A stretch of DNA of 24,148 bases from a virus, in the IMG/VR virus record IMGVR_UViG_3300035670_001217, positions 1 through 24,148 of that record; one strand, written 5' to 3'. Below are positions 2,162 through 20,413 of this stretch, one piece after another. The stretch's first letter is position 1. Each line of letters opens with the position of its first letter. The notes under the pieces are model-generated. The model ran no database searches and was not told the DNA's origin. It saw nothing but the letters and a program-made list of their open reading frames with translations. The position numbers and the translations under genes are program-made.

Positions 2162-3595
2162 TCACATAAGGTTCTTGATAGCAACTCTTCTATAGTAACG
2201 GTTGCTGTTAACACGAAGACGACCCAGACCTTGCTCAGTACCTTCTGCAAATGGGTTTGCAACGATACCGTAACGGGTCTTAAAGCCAATCTTGGGCTGG
2301 AAGGTGTCCTCACCAACGGCACGAACCATTTGGAGGGGAACATATGGGCAATAGAAGAGACCAGCATCATATGGGCTAGAACCCTTATAACCAACAACAT
2401 AGTACTGGTTTGTACCCTGTGCCAGACCACCATTATCAGCAGCAAGGTTTGCCGAATATGGATCGATGTATACTCTGTACTTACCGTTGATGGTTCCAGC
2501 AAAAGTATTGCCAGTGTCATCAACATTTAGGTTTGCATTCAGAGCAGGGGTGTAGTCAAGAACACCAGCCATTGTGAGTGCTGAAGCAACGTCAGCAGAA
2601 CACATAATGATGTTACCCTTTCCACGACGAGTTCTCTGAGCAATTCTGTTAGCATCTCTTTCGATTTGGAACAGAAGACCCTTGAACTTCTCAACTGACC
2701 AACGACCGTTTGAATCAACGTCAAGGTCAAAAACACCTGCAGTTGCAACGTTCTCAACAGCACCTTGCTCAGCAATCTTGTAGATTGTACGAATGACTTC
2801 ACGGTTGATTTCAGCAAGAATCTCAGTTGACAGAATGTTTGCCAACTCAGCTTCTGCATTCAGACCGTGAATTGCCTTAAGGTCCTGAGCAAGCTCAAGT
2901 GAGTACTCAGCCTTCAGTGCTCTTGACTTTGCAGTAACAGTGACTTTCTCAATTGAGAATGCCATCTGATTGAACTGGTCACCAGCAGCATTTCCAAGAT
3001 TCTCCGAGTCACCAGTTACCATTCCTTGACCAACATCATATGCGGTCGAAGTAGCAGTTCCAACTGGGTTAAGAATTGCTGGGTTGGTACCGGATTGTGA
3101 AGTGGTTCCAAGACCAGCAACAACATCGGTGAATCCTGCAGTCAAATCGTTACCCGAATCTTGACCAGAGAAGGCAGTATCAACTTCATTATAGAAGGAT
3201 TCCGTACCACTCTGATTGTTGTAACGTGAACGCATTGCGAAGATGAGTCCAGTAGGACCACTCATTGGTTGAACGCCAGCCAGGTCATAAGCAACCAGGT
3301 TAGGCATAGAACGTCTGATTAGTGAGATCAGAACTGGATCGAAACCAGCAGTAGGACCTGCAGCGGTAGCACTACCACCAAATCCACCTGAAGCACCAGC
3401 AGCATTAGCACTGTTGGTTGGTGATTCCATCAGGTTCATACCTGTGGAGAATGCAGATTCCTCACGGAGGAATTTTTCTTGGTTTTCTAGCAGGACAGCG
3501 GTTACTGCTCTACGATGCGAATCTTTGATTGGATCAAGACCCTCATAGTTGAGGAGTGGTGCCCACTTTGCCTGCAATTGTTCGGAATGGAACAT
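2162..3595 (-). CDS. gp23: Major capsid protein gp23
   Basis: HK97-fold hexamer-forming capsid subunit. The 477-aa product (T4: 521) carries the gp23 signature PNLVAYDLAGVQPMSGPTG (98-116) and a typical gp23 C-terminus with FAEGTEQGLGRLRVNSNRYY. The N-terminal region is a proregion removed by gp21 in T4. Here LMES (55-58) is a good LxE/S cleavage candidate, just before a Ser/Ala/Gly-rich linker (58-85). A good Shine-Dalgarno (AGAGG, 3605-3609) precedes the ATG. A perfect intrinsic terminator follows, fitting a highly expressed gene. Base composition is visibly richer in G+C than in the neighbours (about half of the bases in sampled lines), as expected for codon adaptation in the most abundant virion protein. 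Confidence 0.98.
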   Translation of the reverse strand: MFHSEQLQAKWAPLLNYEGLDPIKDSHRRAVTAVLLENQEKFLREESAFSTGMNLMESPTNSANAAGASGGFGGSATAAGPTAGFDPVLISLIRRSMPNLVAYDLAGVQPMSGPTGLIFAMRSRYNNQSGTESFYNEVDTAFSGQDSGNDLTAGFTDVVAGLGTTSQSGTNPAILNPVGTATSTAYDVGQGMVTGDSENLGNAAGDQFNQMAFSIEKVTVTAKSRALKAEYSLELAQDLKAIHGLNAEAELANILSTEILAEINREVIRTIYKIAEQGAVENVATAGVFDLDVDSNGRWSVEKFKGLLFQIERDANRIAQRTRRGKGNIIMCSADVASALTMAGVLDYTPALNANLNVDDTGNTFAGTINGKYRVYIDPYSANLAADNGGLAQGTNQYYVVGYKGSSPYDAGLFYCPYVPLQMVRAVGEDTFQPKIGFKTRYGIVANPFAEGTEQGLGRLRVNSNRYYRRVAIKNLM

Positions 3596-4797: not shown

Positions 4798-5448
4798 TTA
4801 CAAGTTATTCAGAAAATCATTAAAAAGATTGAGTTTTTCTTCATCTAATTTTTTTTGATCAACTAAAGTATTGATTCTCTTATAAGTTTTTGTGGCATAT
4901 TTTTCACGAAGAATGCCACCATCCCATACCCATTCTTTACCTTCCATAATTCCCGAAACAAACGCATCAGGAGCAGAAGGATCAGCAACGATATCAGCTG
5001 CCGTTGCAAGCATAAAATCCTCTCCGACAACATTAATTCCTTCACGAGTTAAACTTAATGATCCAACTCCACGAGAAGAAACACCCAATTTAACACCTTC
5101 AGAAATTAATGACTCCGCAATTTTTCCCATCGGAGTGTTAAGAATTTTAGCCTTTCCGATAAAATTAGAACCACTTTCACGGAGAGAAGTAATTTTATGA
5201 GAAACCCGATCAAGATTTACTGTAGGACCATCTGGATGTCCAAGTTCTCCAAGTGCTCTACCTGCTTGAATATGATTTTCATTGTAACGGGCAACTTCAC
5301 GACGAAGAGTTTCCATAGGGTACATACGACCATTACGGTTCTTGATGTTGCCTTGAAGAAAAACTCCTTCAATATACAGTGACTTTTTACCGTTACGTTC
5401 TTCAACGATAAATTCTACTGATTCGATCTCTTCTCTGATAAGTTTCAT
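4798..5448 (-). CDS. gp21: Prohead maturation protease gp21
   Basis: Serine protease of the herpesvirus-assemblin-like fold that, in T4, cleaves gp22, gp23, gp67, gp68 and internal proteins after LxE or IxE. With the start at MKLIREE the product is 216 aa (T4 gp21: 212 aa). Conserved elements: GELGHPDGP with catalytic His71 and VSHKI behind it, GVSSRG with the catalytic Ser at 124 or 125, and ADIVADPSAPDA (151-162), which probably supplies the third residue. An upstream in-frame ATG at 5502 adds 18 residues, but it lies inside the preceding gene and lacks family support. The chosen ATG at 5448 is 1 nt past that gene's stop, so translation is probably coupled. Confidence 0.95.
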   Translation of the reverse strand: MKLIREEIESVEFIVEERNGKKSLYIEGVFLQGNIKNRNGRMYPMETLRREVARYNENHIQAGRALGELGHPDGPTVNLDRVSHKITSLRESGSNFIGKAKILNTPMGKIAESLISEGVKLGVSSRGVGSLSLTREGINVVGEDFMLATAADIVADPSAPDAFVSGIMEGKEWVWDGGILREKYATKTYKRINTLVDQKKLDEEKLNLFNDFLNNL

Positions 5449-5449
5449 T

Positions 5450-6001
5450 TTACGCTTGACTGGTAATTTGTACTTGTTGGGAGTAAAGCATTCCAGAACC
5501 ACTATCAGTAATTGCAGATACTTTAAAAGAATTTCTCAAAATTGCATCTGGGTCTGAAAAGGCAGTTGCAATTCCAGTTGTATTTGTTCCTACTCCAATT
5601 CTTGTTGAGAAATAACCATCATAACTTGAAGTATTGAACACTTCAGTCACTGGAATATGAGTAAAATTATAATAATTTTGAGTGGATGCTGTTAATGTAA
5701 CATAATCACCTACTCCAAAAGGAGACATCTGACCCTCTGGAAATGTAATATAAGTTGTCGATCCAGTTGTTACTCCAACAACTCTTGCCGATCCATTATC
5801 AATTGCAAGAGTTGCTGAAGTTCCTGATGGAACACAATAATCACTAAGAGTTGCAGTTGGCTCTGTTCCTATTGCAACAAACGCATTAGCACCAGTAGCA
5901 ACTACTCTAAGAACATTTGTTCTTCCAGAAATTGCTGTTGATTTTGCTGATGTAGTAGATGTGGCAAAGGAAACGCCAGATCCAACTGGTCTATGAGTCA
6001 T
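5450..6001 (-). CDS. Putative head-associated structural protein, 183 aa
   Basis: No T4 counterpart is recognised. In T4 this slot holds gene 68, but this protein is unlike a charged core protein: it is rich in Thr, Ser, Gly and Val, has few charged residues and reads as beta-sandwich. The N-terminus (MTHRPVGSGVSFA) is followed by a domain with DYCVPSGTSATLAI and a PEGQMSPFGVGDYVTLT stretch (around 88-104), then YYNFTHIPVTEVFN and a C-terminal MLYSQQVQIT strand. From memory, similar proteins occupy this position in marine T4-like phages. Its place inside the prohead gene set and coupling to gp21 suggest a capsid surface or decoration role; this is inference. A late promoter lies 25 nt upstream. 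Confidence 0.75.
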   Translation of the reverse strand: MTHRPVGSGVSFATSTTSAKSTAISGRTNVLRVVATGANAFVAIGTEPTATLSDYCVPSGTSATLAIDNGSARVVGVTTGSTTYITFPEGQMSPFGVGDYVTLTASTQNYYNFTHIPVTEVFNTSSYDGYFSTRIGVGTNTTGIATAFSDPDAILRNSFKVSAITDSGSGMLYSQQVQITSQA

Positions 6002-10824: not shown

Positions 10825-12468
10825 TTACATATATTCCCACATATAAGAACGGTCACCATATTCGTCGGTGAACCATCTATCTCCATCTGAATCAACAAAA
10901 CTATTACTATCTAGTCCATCTACAATAAATCCAAATGGTGCCATATCTTGTTCTATTTGGTTTTTTTGTTCTTCATAAATTCTTTTTCTTACATCCTGAT
11001 CTGTGAGTTCTTTAAAATAATCTTGAGCAACTAACCAAGCATAAATTACAAGACACATTGCAAGATCGTCATTGCAACCTTCTTCAGCTTCAAATGAATT
11101 ATGCTTCTGAATAAACGTAGTAAGTTCTGATATGATTTCATAATCACTCAATAATAATTTATTTTCCTCAATCATAGTTTTTAGATTGAGACATCCAACT
11201 TTTTTTACAGTTTTGGACATCTTTACTCCAAGTTGAGTTTTCTTTCCAGAAAATCCTTGCCCAACAATTTGTCCAGCTCTACCGCGCATAGAACACATCA
11301 AAAGATTGTTATATTCCAAATCATAATGAATAATACTTGCTACTTGGTCACCGACATCATTTACCTCACATAAAATGTAAGAATCATTATAATTTTTAGC
11401 AACATCAACTATAATACTTGGAAAAAGCATTGGTTTAATTTCATTATTACGATATTTTGCTACAACTTTATGTGGAAATGTGGTGATATCAATTACAGTA
11501 AATGCTGAGTAATCATTTCCAACTCCACGAGCAACATCAACTGAAATTACGTAATCATTATTTTCTTGAACATCTTCATATACATCTAACCCAGCACTTC
11601 TAGTTTTAGGGTGATCATAGACTAAACTTTTTAATTTACTTGGAGCAATTAAAGTATCAACTGATCCTAAAAATTCACATTCAAATTCAACTTTAAATTG
11701 TTGTTCTGAAGTATTTGCAATTGTTTGCTTTTTCCAAACTTCATCTCTTCCCGGAACTTCAGACCAATGAACATCAGTGGGTATATATTCATTTTTGTTT
11801 CTTTCTGCATCGTGCCACATTCGGTAGAAATGATTCATACCGTGTGGAGTAGAAACAATAATTACCTTCGTGCTTTTACCTGAAGTAATTGTAGGGTAAA
11901 CTGACGCAAAAAATGAATCTGCAATGTGATTAGGAACGAACGCAAATTCGTCCAAAAATAAGATATTGAATGACATACCACGAACCGCAGAAGCAGAAGT
12001 AGAAGCAGCCAAGATTTTACTTCCATTCTCCAGTTCCAGTGACCCTTTATTCCAAGAGATAATTCCCTGTTGCATCCATTTTGGTAGATTTTCATATGCA
12101 GTTTGTAGTCGATCCAGAAGCTCCCTGGCGGTTGCTGCTTTGTTTGCGAGAATGCCTATGTTAACATTATCATTAAAGACGGCATAATGAAGCAGGAAAG
12201 ACACTACAGTGGTTGATTTACCAGTCTGTCGTGGCATCTTACAAATATTAAATCTATGTTGGTGAAAATTATTCACCAATTTTTCTTGAAAAGGATACAT
12301 CGCAAATGGTTGCAATCCTTTATCAAGAGTTACGATCTTTACGTAATTTTTTGCAAAATAAACCGGATCATCTTTGCATTTTACGAATTCAATAATTTGT
12401 TCTTGAGTAAACTCAATTGGGGTATTTGCTTTTTTTAATAAAGGATTGCCTAAATATACATCACTCAT
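10825..12468 (-). CDS. gp17: Terminase large subunit gp17
   Basis: ATP-driven DNA packaging motor and headful nuclease docking on the portal. The 547-aa product (T4: 610) shows the ATPase domain with Walker A PRQTGKST (79-86), Walker B ILFLDE (169-174, catalytic Glu174) and the coupling motif STP (206-208). The RNase H-like nuclease domain follows, with ISVDVARG (Asp311), LCEVND (Glu368) and CNDDLAM (Asp467/468), matching the acidic triad of T4 gp17. It starts 4 nt after the 434-aa gene and has no promoter of its own, so it is probably expressed from the unit starting upstream of the 557-aa gene. Unlike T4, gp16 is not adjacent but about 5 kb away. Confidence 0.98.
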   Translation of the reverse strand: MSDVYLGNPLLKKANTPIEFTQEQIIEFVKCKDDPVYFAKNYVKIVTLDKGLQPFAMYPFQEKLVNNFHQHRFNICKMPRQTGKSTTVVSFLLHYAVFNDNVNIGILANKAATARELLDRLQTAYENLPKWMQQGIISWNKGSLELENGSKILAASTSASAVRGMSFNILFLDEFAFVPNHIADSFFASVYPTITSGKSTKVIIVSTPHGMNHFYRMWHDAERNKNEYIPTDVHWSEVPGRDEVWKKQTIANTSEQQFKVEFECEFLGSVDTLIAPSKLKSLVYDHPKTRSAGLDVYEDVQENNDYVISVDVARGVGNDYSAFTVIDITTFPHKVVAKYRNNEIKPMLFPSIIVDVAKNYNDSYILCEVNDVGDQVASIIHYDLEYNNLLMCSMRGRAGQIVGQGFSGKKTQLGVKMSKTVKKVGCLNLKTMIEENKLLLSDYEIISELTTFIQKHNSFEAEEGCNDDLAMCLVIYAWLVAQDYFKELTDQDVRKRIYEEQKNQIEQDMAPFGFIVDGLDSNSFVDSDGDRWFTDEYGDRSYMWEYM

Positions 12469-12472
12469 AACA

Positions 12473-13777
12473 TTAAGTTAAATCATAAAAACCTAAAGAA
12501 CCTATACATTGAGCACTACCAGATACTGCCCTTGCTGCTAGAGTATATGTATCACTGACTTTTGATTGAGTTCTTCCAAGTTGTAAATCAAAATTATATT
12601 CTTGATCCATACCGAGAGGAACATTTGATTTATTTGCAGAAGAAACATAATCATTACGAACAATTTCTCCACCAGACATTGTTGTTGATGTAGTATCAAA
12701 CTGAACATTTGGAGAACCATCTACAGCCCAAGATGGTGTGGTAAGAGTTGCATTTTTAATTAGTGCAACTTCTATTGTTGCTGCTGCACCCGATTCTGGA
12801 ATAAATGCAATTTGTTTTGGAACAATAATCGCATTTTCTCTTCCTGGAGTGAGACGAATACTTACAATTGGAACAAATAAAGTTGATCCAACAGAAACTT
12901 GTGCGATTCTTCTTGCAATGCCTTCTGCTTGTTTTTTTTCATATCCTCCATTGGACTGAACAGATACACAAATCTGTTTCATTGATGATGAAGATGTTGT
13001 GATTCCTGTGTTTAGAATCTCATAACGAACTGGAAGATTTGCAGTTGTTATATAAACACTATCAAGAATATTTGCGTGATTAAAAGTGTGTGCTGTATGA
13101 AACTTTCCAAAAGAATTTGCAAATCCAACTTTAACGCATCCTACACCCAACCACTCATATTCACTAAAAAGAATTTGTGCTTTTGTTATATCTAAAAGAA
13201 TTCCACTTGGATTAGAATCACTCGGTCCACTCCCATCTAAAGTGTCAATATTCCATTCTGACTGTGGAACAGTCACAGTGGTTGCAACTCCAGATATTGC
13301 AGTTCTTTTGATAAAACTTAATTGAGAACCATTCAGTTCTAACATCACACCATTTTCTGATGATGCATATCCCGCTCTCTGAACCAGATTTTCCTTTGCA
13401 GGATTAAAAACAAATGTTTGAAGAACTTGTAATGATTTTCCAGGTTGATACGAGAATACTCTTTTACTCTCACGAATAAATGAACATCCAGCAGTCGTTC
13501 CGATACCTAATGTTGCGGTACTTTGTGCTGTTATAAAACCGACTGTAGATCCAGAACCAACGATTACATCATCAAAATCTCCATCTTGAGAATAAACATG
13601 GGACGAATCAAAAATTGTAAATGGTTCTGATACTTTGACTCTTCCAAAAAGATCGCCATTAAAACCTTGCCCGACTGGATCAAAGATTTCACCATATCTA
13701 TCAGCCTGCATGAATACCTCAAACAGACTTCTTTCCTGATTCAAATAATCTTGATTAATTTTGTTCCACTGAGCCAT
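12473..13777 (-). CDS. Virion structural protein, 434 aa
   Basis: No T4 homologue recognised; from memory, related proteins occur in marine T4-like phages in the terminase region. The N-terminus is helical with aromatic and acidic residues (MAQWNKINQDYLNQERSLFE). It is followed by a long beta-rich region with Ser/Thr/Gly runs and motifs FHTAHTFNHANILDSVYITT (226-245) and NLPVRYEI, then VSIRLTPGRENAIIVPKQIA. No signal peptide or membrane segment is visible. The beta-rich make-up and lack of catalytic motifs point to a capsid, neck or fibre component. It starts 3 nt after the 107-aa gene and ends 4 nt before gp17, so it is part of the same operon. Confidence 0.78.
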   Translation of the reverse strand: MAQWNKINQDYLNQERSLFEVFMQADRYGEIFDPVGQGFNGDLFGRVKVSEPFTIFDSSHVYSQDGDFDDVIVGSGSTVGFITAQSTATLGIGTTAGCSFIRESKRVFSYQPGKSLQVLQTFVFNPAKENLVQRAGYASSENGVMLELNGSQLSFIKRTAISGVATTVTVPQSEWNIDTLDGSGPSDSNPSGILLDITKAQILFSEYEWLGVGCVKVGFANSFGKFHTAHTFNHANILDSVYITTANLPVRYEILNTGITTSSSSMKQICVSVQSNGGYEKKQAEGIARRIAQVSVGSTLFVPIVSIRLTPGRENAIIVPKQIAFIPESGAAATIEVALIKNATLTTPSWAVDGSPNVQFDTTSTTMSGGEIVRNDYVSSANKSNVPLGMDQEYNFDLQLGRTQSKVSDTYTLAARAVSGSAQCIGSLGFYDLT

Positions 13778-13780
13778 AAA

Positions 13781-14104
13781 TTAAATCCAATCTAACTTTG
13801 CTGGATGATATCTTTTGTTGTCTGTTACTTTGATAGAACCTTTTGAGTTCTCTTTAACGTATATATGTTGAACAATTGAACCTGGATACTCATTTTGAAG
13901 ATATTCAGTAAGTTCTAGTTTTGAAGGAACTCCATTTTCAGTTACCATAGAGATTCTATGAAGGTTCCCCATATATACAATATCTGCAGAAAATTCTTCT
14001 GTTTGAGGTTGAGGATCTTGTGAAACTCCACCTACATTTAGAGTTCCATTAAAATCACCGTTAATTGTGATACTTTCCGATAAAAACTGTTTGAAAGATT
14101 TCAT
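13781..14104 (-). CDS. Small protein with capsid-targeting-like N-terminus, 107 aa
   Basis: Function not established. The N-terminus MKSFKQFLSES resembles the MKTYQEFIxEA leader of T4 internal proteins, which targets them into the prohead and is removed by gp21. LSES at 8-11 is an LxE/S site like the one in gp23. After a short Gly/Asn-rich linker (ITINGDFNGTLNVGG) comes a domain (about 37-98) with VYMGNLHRISMV and EYLQNEYPGSIVQHIYV. This domain is clearly related to residues 417-468 of the upstream 557-aa protein (VYPGSKVQSYHIS). The gene starts 1 nt after the 557-aa stop and ends 3 nt before the 434-aa gene. An internal head protein is plausible but unproven. Confidence 0.75.
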   Translation of the reverse strand: MKSFKQFLSESITINGDFNGTLNVGGVSQDPQPQTEEFSADIVYMGNLHRISMVTENGVPSKLELTEYLQNEYPGSIVQHIYVKENSKGSIKVTDNKRYHPAKLDWI

Positions 14105-14105
14105 A

Positions 14106-15779
14106 TCAGCAGTTCCAAGCTCTGAGTGATTTATTGATTCTGCTATTTGGATCGTTAGCAGTTTTGGCAGAAGTTAGTTTCTTTTTCATCCCACTCATTC
14201 TGGCACAGAATGAAGCACGACGCTTATTACCAACTTTCTTTGAAGGTGCTTTAAGATCACTTCCCGGATTTTCTCTTTCGTAGGACTTACGACCTTTTTC
14301 ATTCAAACCACCTTCTTTATTTTTCCCTTCCTCACGAGTCCACGCAGCACTTTCAGTTTGCAAAAACTGTTCACCTGGTTTGATGTCGGAAATATGGTAT
14401 GATTGAACTTTTGAACCTGGATAAACTTTAGAAATTTGATCTTGTACTTCTTGACGATTTGGTTTAGTGGTTTGAGGAAAAAACATTTTAATCATATAAT
14501 ATTTTCCTCTCCACATTAATGTAACGTGAATAATATTTCCGGTTTTAGATGGAATTCTGATTGCTTCTTGAAGTTCAGTTTCTTCACTTACAGATTTCCA
14601 CCCACCACCTGCTTTCTTATATTCTTTTGCTGCCCAACCGTTGGCATAAGCAGAGGGATAAACATCAAATTTTGCTTTTGCTCTTGCCTTCATTTTTGAC
14701 CAGAGTGAAGGATTTGTTGGAACATTCTTTTCTTCAAGTGTTTGAAGTTGCTCTTCCCCCTCAATCTGTTCAAGAATTTTTGCAACGAGTCCAGTATGTT
14801 CTGGAACACAATTAGGAACCATTTTTTTACCTTTCTTTTTCATTCCAACTTGCTTATAACCTGTCCAACAAGGACCTTTCTCTTCTTCAATATCGTGCTC
14901 ACCACTATCTAAATAATCTGCTACAGAATCAAGATAATCTGCTGCTTTAGTAATTTTTGATTGAACCCAAGCTTCAACATTCCCTTCACCTTTACCCATT
15001 TTTTTCTTCAATCTATTTGCTGCATTAATAATTGTGGAGATTTCAGAACGAGCCATTGAATGTTCGTGATCCTTCTCTTCATTTGCTGAATGAAGTTGTG
15101 AAATATTGTATTTGATTTGATTTGTTGTAAGAGATGGTGGCATAGAAAACATATCCCAATATTTTGTTCCATAACTACATTCTTCTCTTGTTTCATTTTT
15201 TCGACATTTGGGGCAATATCTAACTAATCCCATTTCTTCCTCAATTTTGTTAGATACCATTTTTGGTGCTCCTCCTTTTCCTGGACGATCTGCTACGGGA
15301 TCTGCTTTTCTTTTTCTTCTTACTGCGGAAGCAATTTCATTCTTAGACATTTTTGCTGCCTTTTCTTTAGACAAGCATTTTGGTTTTGGTTCACCAGGTT
15401 CACGAGCACATTTACCAATTCTTTCACCTTTCGTATTATATCTATCCCATCCACCACCACCAACTCCACCTTCTCCACCAGTTCCAAACCATTTGCGAAG
15501 GTCTTCATATGCCATACCTCTGCGTGTATGTTTAACTTCACCTTTCTGTTTCGCAATTAATTTTTTAGATACTGTTGCAAAGTTTGCAATAGGATTTTCA
15601 TCAGGAATTCCTTTCTTTGGATTATCATAAACGTCAACATCACCATCAGCATCACGATCAACATACTGAACTGTTGCGTGATGTACTAACTGCTTCAAAT
15701 CTAAATTTGGATCTAACTGATGTTGTTTTCCTTTTAAATGTGAAGTTTTATGAGTAAATTTGGTAAATTTGGATTTCAT
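14106..15779 (-). CDS. Mosaic multi-module protein, 557 aa, unknown function
   Basis: Not recognised as a T4 gene; it reads as a string of small modules. A basic N-terminus is followed by an EF-hand-like loop DRDADGDVDVYD (41-52). A Gly-rich WDRYNTKGERIGKC segment (111-124) and KPKCLSKEKAAKMSKNEI come next. A three-cysteine cluster (Cys189, Cys192, Cys201) follows, then a helical segment with WVQSKITKAADYLDSV (271-286). After this come PCWTGYKQVGMKKKGKKMVPNC (303-324), a KFDVYPSAYANGWAAKEYKK module (370-389), the YPGS domain shared with the next gene (417-468), and a C-terminal KGRKSYERENPGSDLKAP...SFCARMSGMKKKL domain (495-557). Several modules recur in marine phage proteins of unknown function; I believe the last corresponds to a Pfam DUF (possibly DUF6321). 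Cotranscribed with gp17. Confidence 0.8.
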   Translation of the reverse strand: MKSKFTKFTHKTSHLKGKQHQLDPNLDLKQLVHHATVQYVDRDADGDVDVYDNPKKGIPDENPIANFATVSKKLIAKQKGEVKHTRRGMAYEDLRKWFGTGGEGGVGGGGWDRYNTKGERIGKCAREPGEPKPKCLSKEKAAKMSKNEIASAVRRKRKADPVADRPGKGGAPKMVSNKIEEEMGLVRYCPKCRKNETREECSYGTKYWDMFSMPPSLTTNQIKYNISQLHSANEEKDHEHSMARSEISTIINAANRLKKKMGKGEGNVEAWVQSKITKAADYLDSVADYLDSGEHDIEEEKGPCWTGYKQVGMKKKGKKMVPNCVPEHTGLVAKILEQIEGEEQLQTLEEKNVPTNPSLWSKMKARAKAKFDVYPSAYANGWAAKEYKKAGGGWKSVSEETELQEAIRIPSKTGNIIHVTLMWRGKYYMIKMFFPQTTKPNRQEVQDQISKVYPGSKVQSYHISDIKPGEQFLQTESAAWTREEGKNKEGGLNEKGRKSYERENPGSDLKAPSKKVGNKRRASFCARMSGMKKKLTSAKTANDPNSRINKSLRAWNC

Positions 15780-17549: not shown

Positions 17550-17987
17550 CTATTTATCGTTTTCGGTAAGTCCGTTCTTTAACAACTTTGATAATTCTGC
17601 AGTAGATCCCACAAAAAGAGCATTTGTAACATTTGTGGGACCTTTTATTTTTTGTTCATCCAGATCTTTAAGTTTTTTCTGTAAATCCATTAATTTTTCT
17701 GTTGCATCAGAAACACTTTTAATCAATTGCCCCGCAACTTCATATGCTCTTGGCATCTCACTTTCTTGTGCCAGCTCCAGAATTCCATTAATTGCTTCCT
17801 GCCCTTTTTCAATAATGGAATAAAGATTGCCACGAGTATATTCATAATCTTTTCGAATATCGTCAGAAATTAAAGATGATTTTTCGGTAGTATTGTCGAT
17901 TAAATTTGCAGACACTTCTTGTGATACTATTTCTCCCGCAACATTAAAAGCATCATTTAACTTGTCATATTTTTTTGTCATTTTCAT
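17550..17987 (-). CDS. gp16: Terminase small subunit gp16
   Basis: Recognises concatemeric DNA and stimulates the ATPase of gp17 during packaging. The 145-aa product is close to T4 gp16 (164 aa) and follows its helical plan: DIRKDYEYTRGNLYSIIEKGQEAINGILELA (43-73), AQESEMPRAYEVAGQLIKSVSDATEKLMDLQKKL (73-106), then a short C-terminal tail. The central antiparallel coiled coil is the oligomerisation core in T4-like gp16. The ATG overlaps the gp15 TGA as ATGA. A second ATG two codons later (17981) is an alternative start and would shorten the product by only two residues. Confidence 0.93.
   Translation of the reverse strand: MKMTKKYDKLNDAFNVAGEIVSQEVSANLIDNTTEKSSLISDDIRKDYEYTRGNLYSIIEKGQEAINGILELAQESEMPRAYEVAGQLIKSVSDATEKLMDLQKKLKDLDEQKIKGPTNVTNALFVGSTAELSKLLKNGLTENDK
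17551..17558 (-). promoter_or_regulatory. Late promoter (GATAAATA) before the 560-aa gene
   Basis: Minus-strand GATAAATA overlaps the last codons and TAG stop of gp16 (GAT AAA TAG), 44 nt before the 560-aa ATG. Confidence 0.62.
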
Positions 17988-19030: not shown

Positions 19031-19038
19031 TATTTATG
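19031..19038 (-). promoter_or_regulatory. Late promoter (CATAAATA) before gp15, distal
   Basis: Minus-strand CATAAATA contains the TAA stop codon of gp14 (CCA TAA ATA). It lies 12 nt upstream of the other match, giving gp15 tandem boxes. Confidence 0.55.
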
Positions 19039-20413
19039 GCATCCCAAATGGATTGCTATCTGTAAAGTCAATTATATCATCCGCTTCATTTTCTATTGTA
19101 GTATTTTGAGCATAACTATCATCCGCATTTGAAATTGAAATTTTTCTATATTGATAAACTGCTCCAGACTCAGACCCTGTAATAGTTTCTCCATTTACAA
19201 AAGATCCAGTTATATTTGAAATTTGCAATATGCTTGTAGAAGCATTCCAAGATTTTACTTTTGCTGTTGTTCCACTAGATGATCCTGTTATAGTTTCATT
19301 AAAAATATAATTTCCAATTCCCGAAATATATGGTGAAGATATAGTAACAGTTGGAGATATTGTATAACCAAGACCGGCATTTGTGATACCAATTTGAGTA
19401 ACAATTCCAACGGAGTTTAGATATGCAATAGCAGTTGCAGTTACACCAACTCCAGCTGGGGATGAAAATGTAATTGTCGGAACAGTTGAATACCCTGATC
19501 CTCCAGAAGTTAAAGTTATAATTCCAACAACTCCATCACCAATTGTTGCAGTTGCAGCAGCTCCTACTCCACCACCACCAAAAAATGCAACAGACGGTGG
19601 AGTAGTATATCCATATCCAGAATTAATAATATCGACCCTTTGAACTTTAGACGAAGTTGTTCCATTACAATCAACAAGACCAGATATCATCGATGCTACT
19701 CCAACAGCAGTTAAACCACCAGCAGGAGCAGATGAAATTGCCACTCTTGGTATAGATGTATACTTTTCTCCTCTATTGCTGATAGTTATAAATCTAACTC
19801 CACCGTTAACTATTCCAGCAATTGCAGTTGCAGTAGATCCAGATCCAATTAAACTTAAAGATTCGATATAACCGGATTTTTCAACATTATCATCTATTTG
19901 TTCGACACCGGTATCAATCTCCTCATCTTCATATCTGAACAGTTCACATCTCAATTCATATACATATGTTTTTTGAAGTTGATAAAAAGGTTTTTCGTGC
20001 TCTACAAATTTAATTTCAAATAATCTATCTCCAAGTGGAAAATAAATCAAATCTCCTTCTTTTGGTCTTGTTGCAAGTTCTATATCTGGAATATTTTTAA
20101 TTAGTGGTGTAATATACGTTTCAAATCTTTCTTTAGAAATAATTAAAGTTAAATCTGATAGTGGTTGAATCCCAAACTTAGATAATATCGTTCCTTGTCC
20201 TTCATACCCTTCGTATGTATCAACGTAAGCTTCTAATGGTAACGCATTATCAAATTTAGATTCAATTACTTCTTTAATAATCGTATTTGTTGTAATATAC
20301 CTTCTAGGAATATAATAAACTTCAACTCCATACATACGAAGTTGTTCATTTATTAAACTCTGAACAAGTGATTGTTCTCCTGCAGATCCTTGTAAGAAAA
20401 ATGGATTGAGCAT
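19034..20413 (-). CDS. gp14: Neck protein gp14 with a repeat-bearing C-terminal extension
   Basis: Head-completion/neck protein joining the filled head to the tail. Residues 1-175 match the gp14 core: MLNPFFLQGSAGEQSLVQSL, YGVEVYYIPRRY, FGIQPLSDLTLIISKERFE, RPKEGDLIYFPLGDRLFEIKF and YELRCELFRYEDEEIDTG. T4 gp14 is 256 aa; this product is 459. The extension (about 205-360) has four beta-type repeats of about 40 residues with the pattern ITxxGxGYTxxPxVxxSSP (near 208, 259, 297 and 340), then two TITGS(S/E)SG units (374 and 411). It starts 4 nt after the gp13 stop. Core function is confident; the role of the repeats (adhesion or collar decoration) is inferred. Confidence 0.94.
   Translation of the reverse strand: MLNPFFLQGSAGEQSLVQSLINEQLRMYGVEVYYIPRRYITTNTIIKEVIESKFDNALPLEAYVDTYEGYEGQGTILSKFGIQPLSDLTLIISKERFETYITPLIKNIPDIELATRPKEGDLIYFPLGDRLFEIKFVEHEKPFYQLQKTYVYELRCELFRYEDEEIDTGVEQIDDNVEKSGYIESLSLIGSGSTATAIAGIVNGGVRFITISNRGEKYTSIPRVAISSAPAGGLTAVGVASMISGLVDCNGTTSSKVQRVDIINSGYGYTTPPSVAFFGGGGVGAAATATIGDGVVGIITLTSGGSGYSTVPTITFSSPAGVGVTATAIAYLNSVGIVTQIGITNAGLGYTISPTVTISSPYISGIGNYIFNETITGSSSGTTAKVKSWNASTSILQISNITGSFVNGETITGSESGAVYQYRKISISNADDSYAQNTTIENEADDIIDFTDSNPFGMP

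Follow-up and report, generated by a model that had tools for sequence, protein, structure and literature searches.

As far as we know, phage T4 and a few giant phages are the only ones whose internal head proteins have been well characterised. Among the small basic head proteins of T4, IPII and IPIII start with MKTYQEFIAE↓A, and IPI starts with MKTFKEF and carries TITE↓A (arrows mark known or putative cleavage sites). The first ten residues of this capsid-targeting sequence (CTS) are enough for packaging in T4, with positions 4 and 7 serving targeting and positions 8 and 10 serving processing by the protease gp21, which cleaves after L/I-x-E (PMC9026906). The ejection proteins of the giant phages SPN3US and phiKZ are likewise head proteins; the prohead protease cuts them behind a short motif with E as its last residue, and they are delivered together with the DNA (PMC9026906, PMC5694885, PMC7411985). 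Here, we analysed the 24,148-base viral record IMGVR_UViG_3300035670_001217 (positions 1 to 24,148; hereafter the window; the features described here lie on its minus strand) and describe P0001, a 557-amino-acid (aa) protein (14106-15779) whose eight segments, in the order A-B-C-D-E-F-G-H, are real evolutionary units that are shuffled between relatives. We favour, with some reserve, the explanation that P0001 is a combinatorial head-cargo protein made of shuffled minidomains and packed in the head.

P0001 is encoded by an intact open reading frame (ORF) that starts at ATG and is present once within the record; its N-terminus reads MKSKFTKFTHKT. The original prediction had recognised this frame and described it as lysine-rich, with nine cysteines and at least seven short segments. 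Indeed, the frame contains nine cysteines (residues 124, 135, 189, 192, 201, 304, 324, 525 and 557) and 76 lysines (13.6%; pI 9.55), and the named segments lie at the residues given for them, with matches to DUF6321 and to PHROG families beyond chance. The modules themselves proved real, and eight rather than seven were recovered by independent hidden Markov models (HMMs), which were built iteratively for the eight segments and applied to ORFs from 238 loci.

By these HMMs, module A (residues 30-62; 15594-15692) is N-terminal throughout the family and holds the loop DRDADGDVDVYD at residues 41-52. The original prediction had called this loop EF-hand-like: it is near-invariant among relatives sharing the architecture of P0001, and no EF-hand family matched P0001 at E <= 1. 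Module B (92-176; 15252-15506; phrog_12753 at residues 93-178) is basic, follows the pattern WDRYN..CARE..KC and has a cysteine pair (124/135), and module C (179-228; 15096-15245) carries the CPxC...C cluster of cysteines 189, 192 and 201. Module D (232-294; 14898-15086; phrog_32745) is helical, as modelled by AlphaFold, and includes WVQSKITKAADY. Module E (298-332; 14784-14888) shows PCWxGY..VPNC with a cysteine pair (304/324) and matches phrog_36547 (residues 297-356), phrog_4359 and phrog_9737. Module F (354-395; 14595-14720), with VYPSAYANGW, is partially DUF5872-like below the cut-off (PF19197 at residues 354-393, 24.1 bits against a cut-off of 27.5, covering 39 of 116 profile positions). 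Module G (404-464; 14388-14570), the YPGS domain, was modelled with a β-β-α-β fold and belongs to the family of the neighbouring 107-aa protein (phrog_1742, at residues 410-461 of P0001). Finally, module H (478-557; 14109-14348) is DUF6321 (PF19846 at residues 485-555, 81.9 bits against a Pfam gathering cut-off of 28.5) and ends in ..RAWNC. A further family, phrog_727, spans residues 89-557, and all PHROG families matched by parts of P0001 are of unknown function. Besides these sequence matches (DUF6321, phrog_727 and phrog_1742), P0001 is linked through its S-BM3 homologue to T4-GC119 (PMC3037559). All four are unannotated families, and neither their module permutation nor a link to head targeting was found in the literature searched.

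Parts of P0001 matched 508 phage records, only two of which matched more than 80% of its length. To compare architectures, we considered the 157 proteins carrying four or more modules (domain E < 1e-6) and found 51 different ones, a count raised slightly by a handful of proteins truncated where contigs end. These included inversions and duplications, which strongly supports the combinatorial nature put forward in the original prediction. For example, the order ABCDEFGH of P0001 was replaced by BFCDEGH, BFEGH, BDEFGCH or CDEBFGH in relatives, by GBFEH in S-BM3, BDFECGH in S-T4 and BFECGH in S-SCSM1, and in BFEEH module E was duplicated. Module E preceded F in 19 architectures and followed it in 21. 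The ends were fixed: module A was first in every case, and module H was last in 146 of the 157 proteins, usually ending no more than one residue from the C-terminus. The pool also comprises additional modules, namely DUF5661 (N-terminal), DUF192 and DUF3008. The multi-module protein gp123 of Bellamy (L250 3137-4993), which occupies the same slot, holds a complete DUF192 domain (93 bits), and a free 69-aa DUF3008 protein with a virion label, S-SCSM1 ORF93 (L242 41626-41835), is 68% identical to a module within a multi-module relative (L156 3090-5237, residues 73-128). Recombination of protein fragments, including those of structural genes, has been described as domain mosaicism of phage proteins (PMC10684548); in the P0001 family, however, whole modules of roughly 30-85 aa are re-ordered at one locus. 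A cellular origin of module H was considered and dismissed, as the module was found at just 13 loci in 84,980 genomes, mostly in metagenome-assembled bins, and these loci were taken as phage sequence on the strength of record title and contig size rather than gene content.

The free module order and the variable linkers might suggest neutral recombination debris without a joint function. We consider this very improbable, given that modules B and H were 85-96% identical across retrieved loci despite the differing order, that the cysteines and the C-terminus were near-invariant among relatives, and that the frame is intact and its genomic slot conserved. The shuffled order also argues against one continuous fold of P0001. 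An AlphaFold model based on a shallow alignment of 30 full-length relatives reached a mean predicted local distance difference test (pLDDT) score of 47 and a predicted template modelling score of 0.19, with no sign of a single fold. Confidence was highest in modules C (pLDDT up to 73), F and G, the linkers were loose, and a search of the PDB with the P0001 sequence returned a chance match only.

As the original prediction had noted, the gene lies among the terminase genes. On the minus strand, the order is gp13, gp14, gp15, gp16 (the terminase small subunit, TerS; 17550-17987), a 560-aa fibre-like protein, P0001, a 107-aa protein (13781-14104), a 434-aa virion structural protein (12473-13777; phrog_1645), gp17 (the terminase large subunit, TerL; 10825-12468), gp18, gp19, gp20, gp21, gp22 and gp23, some of these names being based solely on similarity of sequence and on a place in the T4-like arrangement of genes. 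The gp16 and gp17 assignments derive from family and profile matches, for gp17 also from identity to relatives. Since TerL was 86% identical to that of Synechococcus phage Bellamy and 85% identical to those of S-SCSM1 and S-SM2, we assign the phage to the T4-like cyanophages of the Kyanoviridae, and the gene order was the same in the Kyanoviridae relatives compared. The ORFs next to P0001 are 45 nt (upstream) and 1 nt (downstream) away, and this spacing and the gene order are consistent with co-expression of P0001 and gp17; a promoter scan gave no signal over chance level. Among 182 multi-module genes, the nearest recognised upstream gene was TerS in 96, a G-only gene followed within 60 nt in 70 and TerL followed within 60 nt in 54. 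The whole genome of S-SCSM1 has one multi-module and one G-only gene.

A link to the head interior comes from the 107-aa protein, a G-only paralogue the core of which belongs to the same family as module G. Its N-terminus, MKSFKQFLSE↓S (14075-14104), is a T4-type CTS by pattern and homologue conservation (aromatic residues at 4 and 7, a hydrophobic residue at 8 and E10 followed by S/A), and its F4, F7, L8 and E10 match the four positions that serve targeting and processing in T4 IPIII. In 52 homologues, E10 was invariant and F4 and F7 near-invariant. Of the 49 unique N-termini in this family, 41 showed the strict pattern, against 3 of 1750 other ORFs. AlphaFold placed the tag in a separate helix (residues 4-11), followed by a disordered stretch and a small β-β-α-β-β domain. 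Foldseek gave no significant match of this model to the PDB, and the fold likenesses of a second search (Z <= 4.0, including T7 Gp2 at 3.2 and YkzG at 3.0) were too weak to be retained. The CTS was also found on stand-alone H proteins (strict pattern 5/12, relaxed pattern 8/12) and on the same-slot protein of S-SZBM1, in which MKTFKQYITE↓A is followed by a cysteine-rich stretch and then by H. Thus, the 107-aa gene and the stand-alone H proteins share with T4 IPI, IPII and IPIII the tag, the four key residues and the L/I-x-E↓S/A site. We know of no earlier report of a CTS in cyanophages; in the literature searched, both terms co-occur only in a T4 review.

Only two ORFs in the 228 kb of S-SCSM1 carry the CTS pattern, namely the G-only gene and NMNAT. 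NMNAT is an enzyme repeatedly found in cyanophage virions, its presence there being left unexplained (PMC9602691). Among 21 unique N-termini of its homologues, 18 carry the CTS and the remaining three deviate at position 4 only. The tag thus marks virion proteins in this family of phages, and a CTS would explain the packaging of NMNAT in virions. NMNAT/cytidylyltransferase genes with the T4-type N-terminus were seen at L242 38819-40048 (S-SCSM1 ORF91), in L264-L311 and at L240 30609-31469 (S-CREM2 gp154). In S-CREM2, both the cytidylyltransferase gp154 and gp136 (MQTFSMFFSE↓D) fit the pattern and were detected by mass spectrometry (MS).

Relatives of P0001 have themselves been found in virion preparations. 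S-SCSM1 ORF29 (B-F-E-C-G-H), which occupies the same slot, bears the label 'virion protein' in a genome for which 45 virion proteins were found by MS (PMC9602691); we counted 48 such labels in the record, so the label approximates MS detection, identity of the two being unproven. In S-CREM2, gp137, which lies between TerS and TerL and holds modules G and H, was detected with 4 peptides and 4.1% coverage (PMC10665884, Table 3). One could object that P0001 is a non-virion accessory of DNA packaging, expressed from the terminase operon, and that these detections reflect a co-purified late protein, a caution voiced by the S-CREM2 authors (PMC10665884) and in line with the position between gp16 and gp17, the frequent adjacency to TerS and TerL described above and the basic charge. 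TerS and TerL of S-SCSM1, however, carry no virion label although they are neighbours of the labelled ORF29, and the same-slot protein of S-SZBM1 has a CTS, which makes this explanation unlikely in our view. A place in the virion but not in the DNA compartment (in the neck, on a fibre or associated with the tail), with modules that bind partners or ligands, would agree with the placement of P0001 and its S-SCSM1 counterpart after a fibre-like ORF and before a virion structural protein, and domain shuffling is best known in receptor-binding proteins (PMC10684548). Yet the neighbour and the stand-alone relatives have a head-interior targeting signal, none of the P0001 modules matches a tail or fibre family and AlphaFold predicts loose linkers, so that we regard such a location as improbable.

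If P0001 was packed in the head, the prohead protease gp21 (4798-5502; 38% identity to T4 gp21) would be the candidate processing enzyme. Both this protease and the gp23 site L-M-E↓S (3425-3433), which aligns to L-T-E↓A, the site at which T4 gp23 is known to be matured, are conserved in the window. We searched for processing-like sites between modules using deduplicated linkers, with local shuffles as expectation, and in a second test left out the flanks of G and H; an earlier test with whole-linker shuffles gave inflated values because acidic residues clump, LxD being enriched too, and was replaced. The motif hydrophobic-x-E with A, S or G as the next residue was found 88 times in linkers against 36.5 expected (z 9.1), while versions with D, with K or with shifted spacing were at background. 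Outside the G and H flanks, it was found 33 times against 14.8 (z 4.8). No [LI].E[ASGV] motif was found inside modules, and such motifs were depleted in other proteins. In multi-module proteins, 95% of the unique upstream flanks of module G contained [LIVMF]xE[AGS], nearly all at -3. P0001 itself follows this pattern with one good, prohead-protease-like site, L403-Q-E405↓A (14562-14573), before module G; several weaker candidates came from the site scan, namely I-E-E at the B/C junction (179-181; 15237-15245), I-E-E at the D/E junction (297-299; 14883-14891) and L-E-E at the E/F junction (348-350; 14730-14738), and there was none at the G/H junction. In addition, linkers of some relatives hold embedded CTS-like motifs, mostly before E or H (12 against 1.3 expected), as if tagged single-module proteins had become fused. 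P0001 might plausibly be processed into pieces, and we remain somewhat doubtful that gp21 cuts it.

Several observations weigh against P0001 being head cargo that is cut by gp21. Neither P0001 nor any of 113 unique multi-module N-termini has an N-terminal CTS, and such a tag would hence not account for its route into the head; a CTS-like FTKFT at residues 5-9 of P0001 was discarded because the family does not conserve it. Podophages have H as a free protein without a CTS, and for this reason we make no firm claim for H as a head-targeting element. The virion proteome of S-SZBM1 (PMC9146016) lacks both the same-slot gp084 and the G-only gp085, the G-only ORF30 of S-SCSM1 has no virion label, the coverage of S-CREM2 gp137 was low, and MS does not separate the head interior from the tail or from co-purified protein. 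Concerning the sites, the reversed control [ASG]E.[LIVMF] was enriched as well (z 6.4, or z 2.0 once the G and H flanks were left out), and part of the site signal is thus explained by conserved module flanks.

Taking both sides together, packaging of P0001 in the head, which the original prediction had raised as a possibility, is probable and indirectly supported by MS of same-slot relatives, the CTS on the neighbour and on stand-alone relatives, and the protease-like sites. In this Kyanoviridae family, small minidomains that are mostly basic or cysteine-bearing are shuffled by recombination between phages, and P0001 would be packed into the head alongside the DNA and the CTS-tagged 107-aa G protein. 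It is conceivable that gp21 then cuts P0001 between modules, at the hydrophobic-x-E↓A/S/G sites, and that its fragments reach the host along with the DNA; shuffling might then be a way for the phage to alter the cargo it packages. We hold the complete scheme, in which P0001 is a head-packaged polyprotein releasing up to eight minidomains for ejection into the cyanobacterium, and in which shuffling of modules, several with an upstream cut site of their own, reprogrammes what is injected, to be tentative and rather unlikely in full. The DNA- or capsid-binding scaffold suggested in the original prediction would draw on the basic charge of P0001, and the loose linkers and the processing-like sites suggest cargo more than a rigid scaffold.

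Because the N-terminal tag is absent, we did not file P0001 as a classical T4 internal protein, and it may still work like one. Like the T4 internal proteins, the family would combine variable cargo with a fixed entry logic; in contrast to them, P0001 is multi-modular and without a family match to them, and the fixed element of its family is the C-terminal domain. The comparison with SPN3US and phiKZ is by description rather than by sequence, and module shuffling of this kind is not described in the excerpts of those accounts. The locus yields a testable rule for cyanophage proteins that enter the head, namely an MKxFxxF[LI]xE tag and hydrophobic-x-E↓A/S/G sites, and this rule would account for the NMNAT in cyanophage virions. 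The locus also shows with unusual clarity how small modules are permuted in nature at a single site, with many orders represented in public contigs.

A few further observations concern possible head cargo and the surrounding genes. S-CREM2 gp136 (L240 13302-14015; 237 aa, starting with MQTFSMFFSE↓DA) adjoins TerS and is likely another internal head protein, and two ORFs with a CTS start, L101 1112-1543 (144 aa, MKNFNQFLNE) and L132 2553-3212 (220 aa, MKTFKNFILE), are candidates for extra head cargo. In the T7-like cyanophage P-SCSP1a, an untagged stand-alone DUF6321-like protein is encoded between the genes for the major capsid protein and for gp11 (L248 3417-3671). Within the window, two ORFs of 140 and 106 aa (2104-2526 and 2539-2859) overlie gp23 in another frame and are probably spurious. 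The 560-aa ORF between gp16 and P0001 (15825-17507) owes its fibre-like match to phrog_28263 (tail fibre), and the neck protein gp14 (19034-20413; 459 aa) has a long C-terminal extension that, past residue ~190, matches baseplate and virion structural protein families with glycine-rich repeats.
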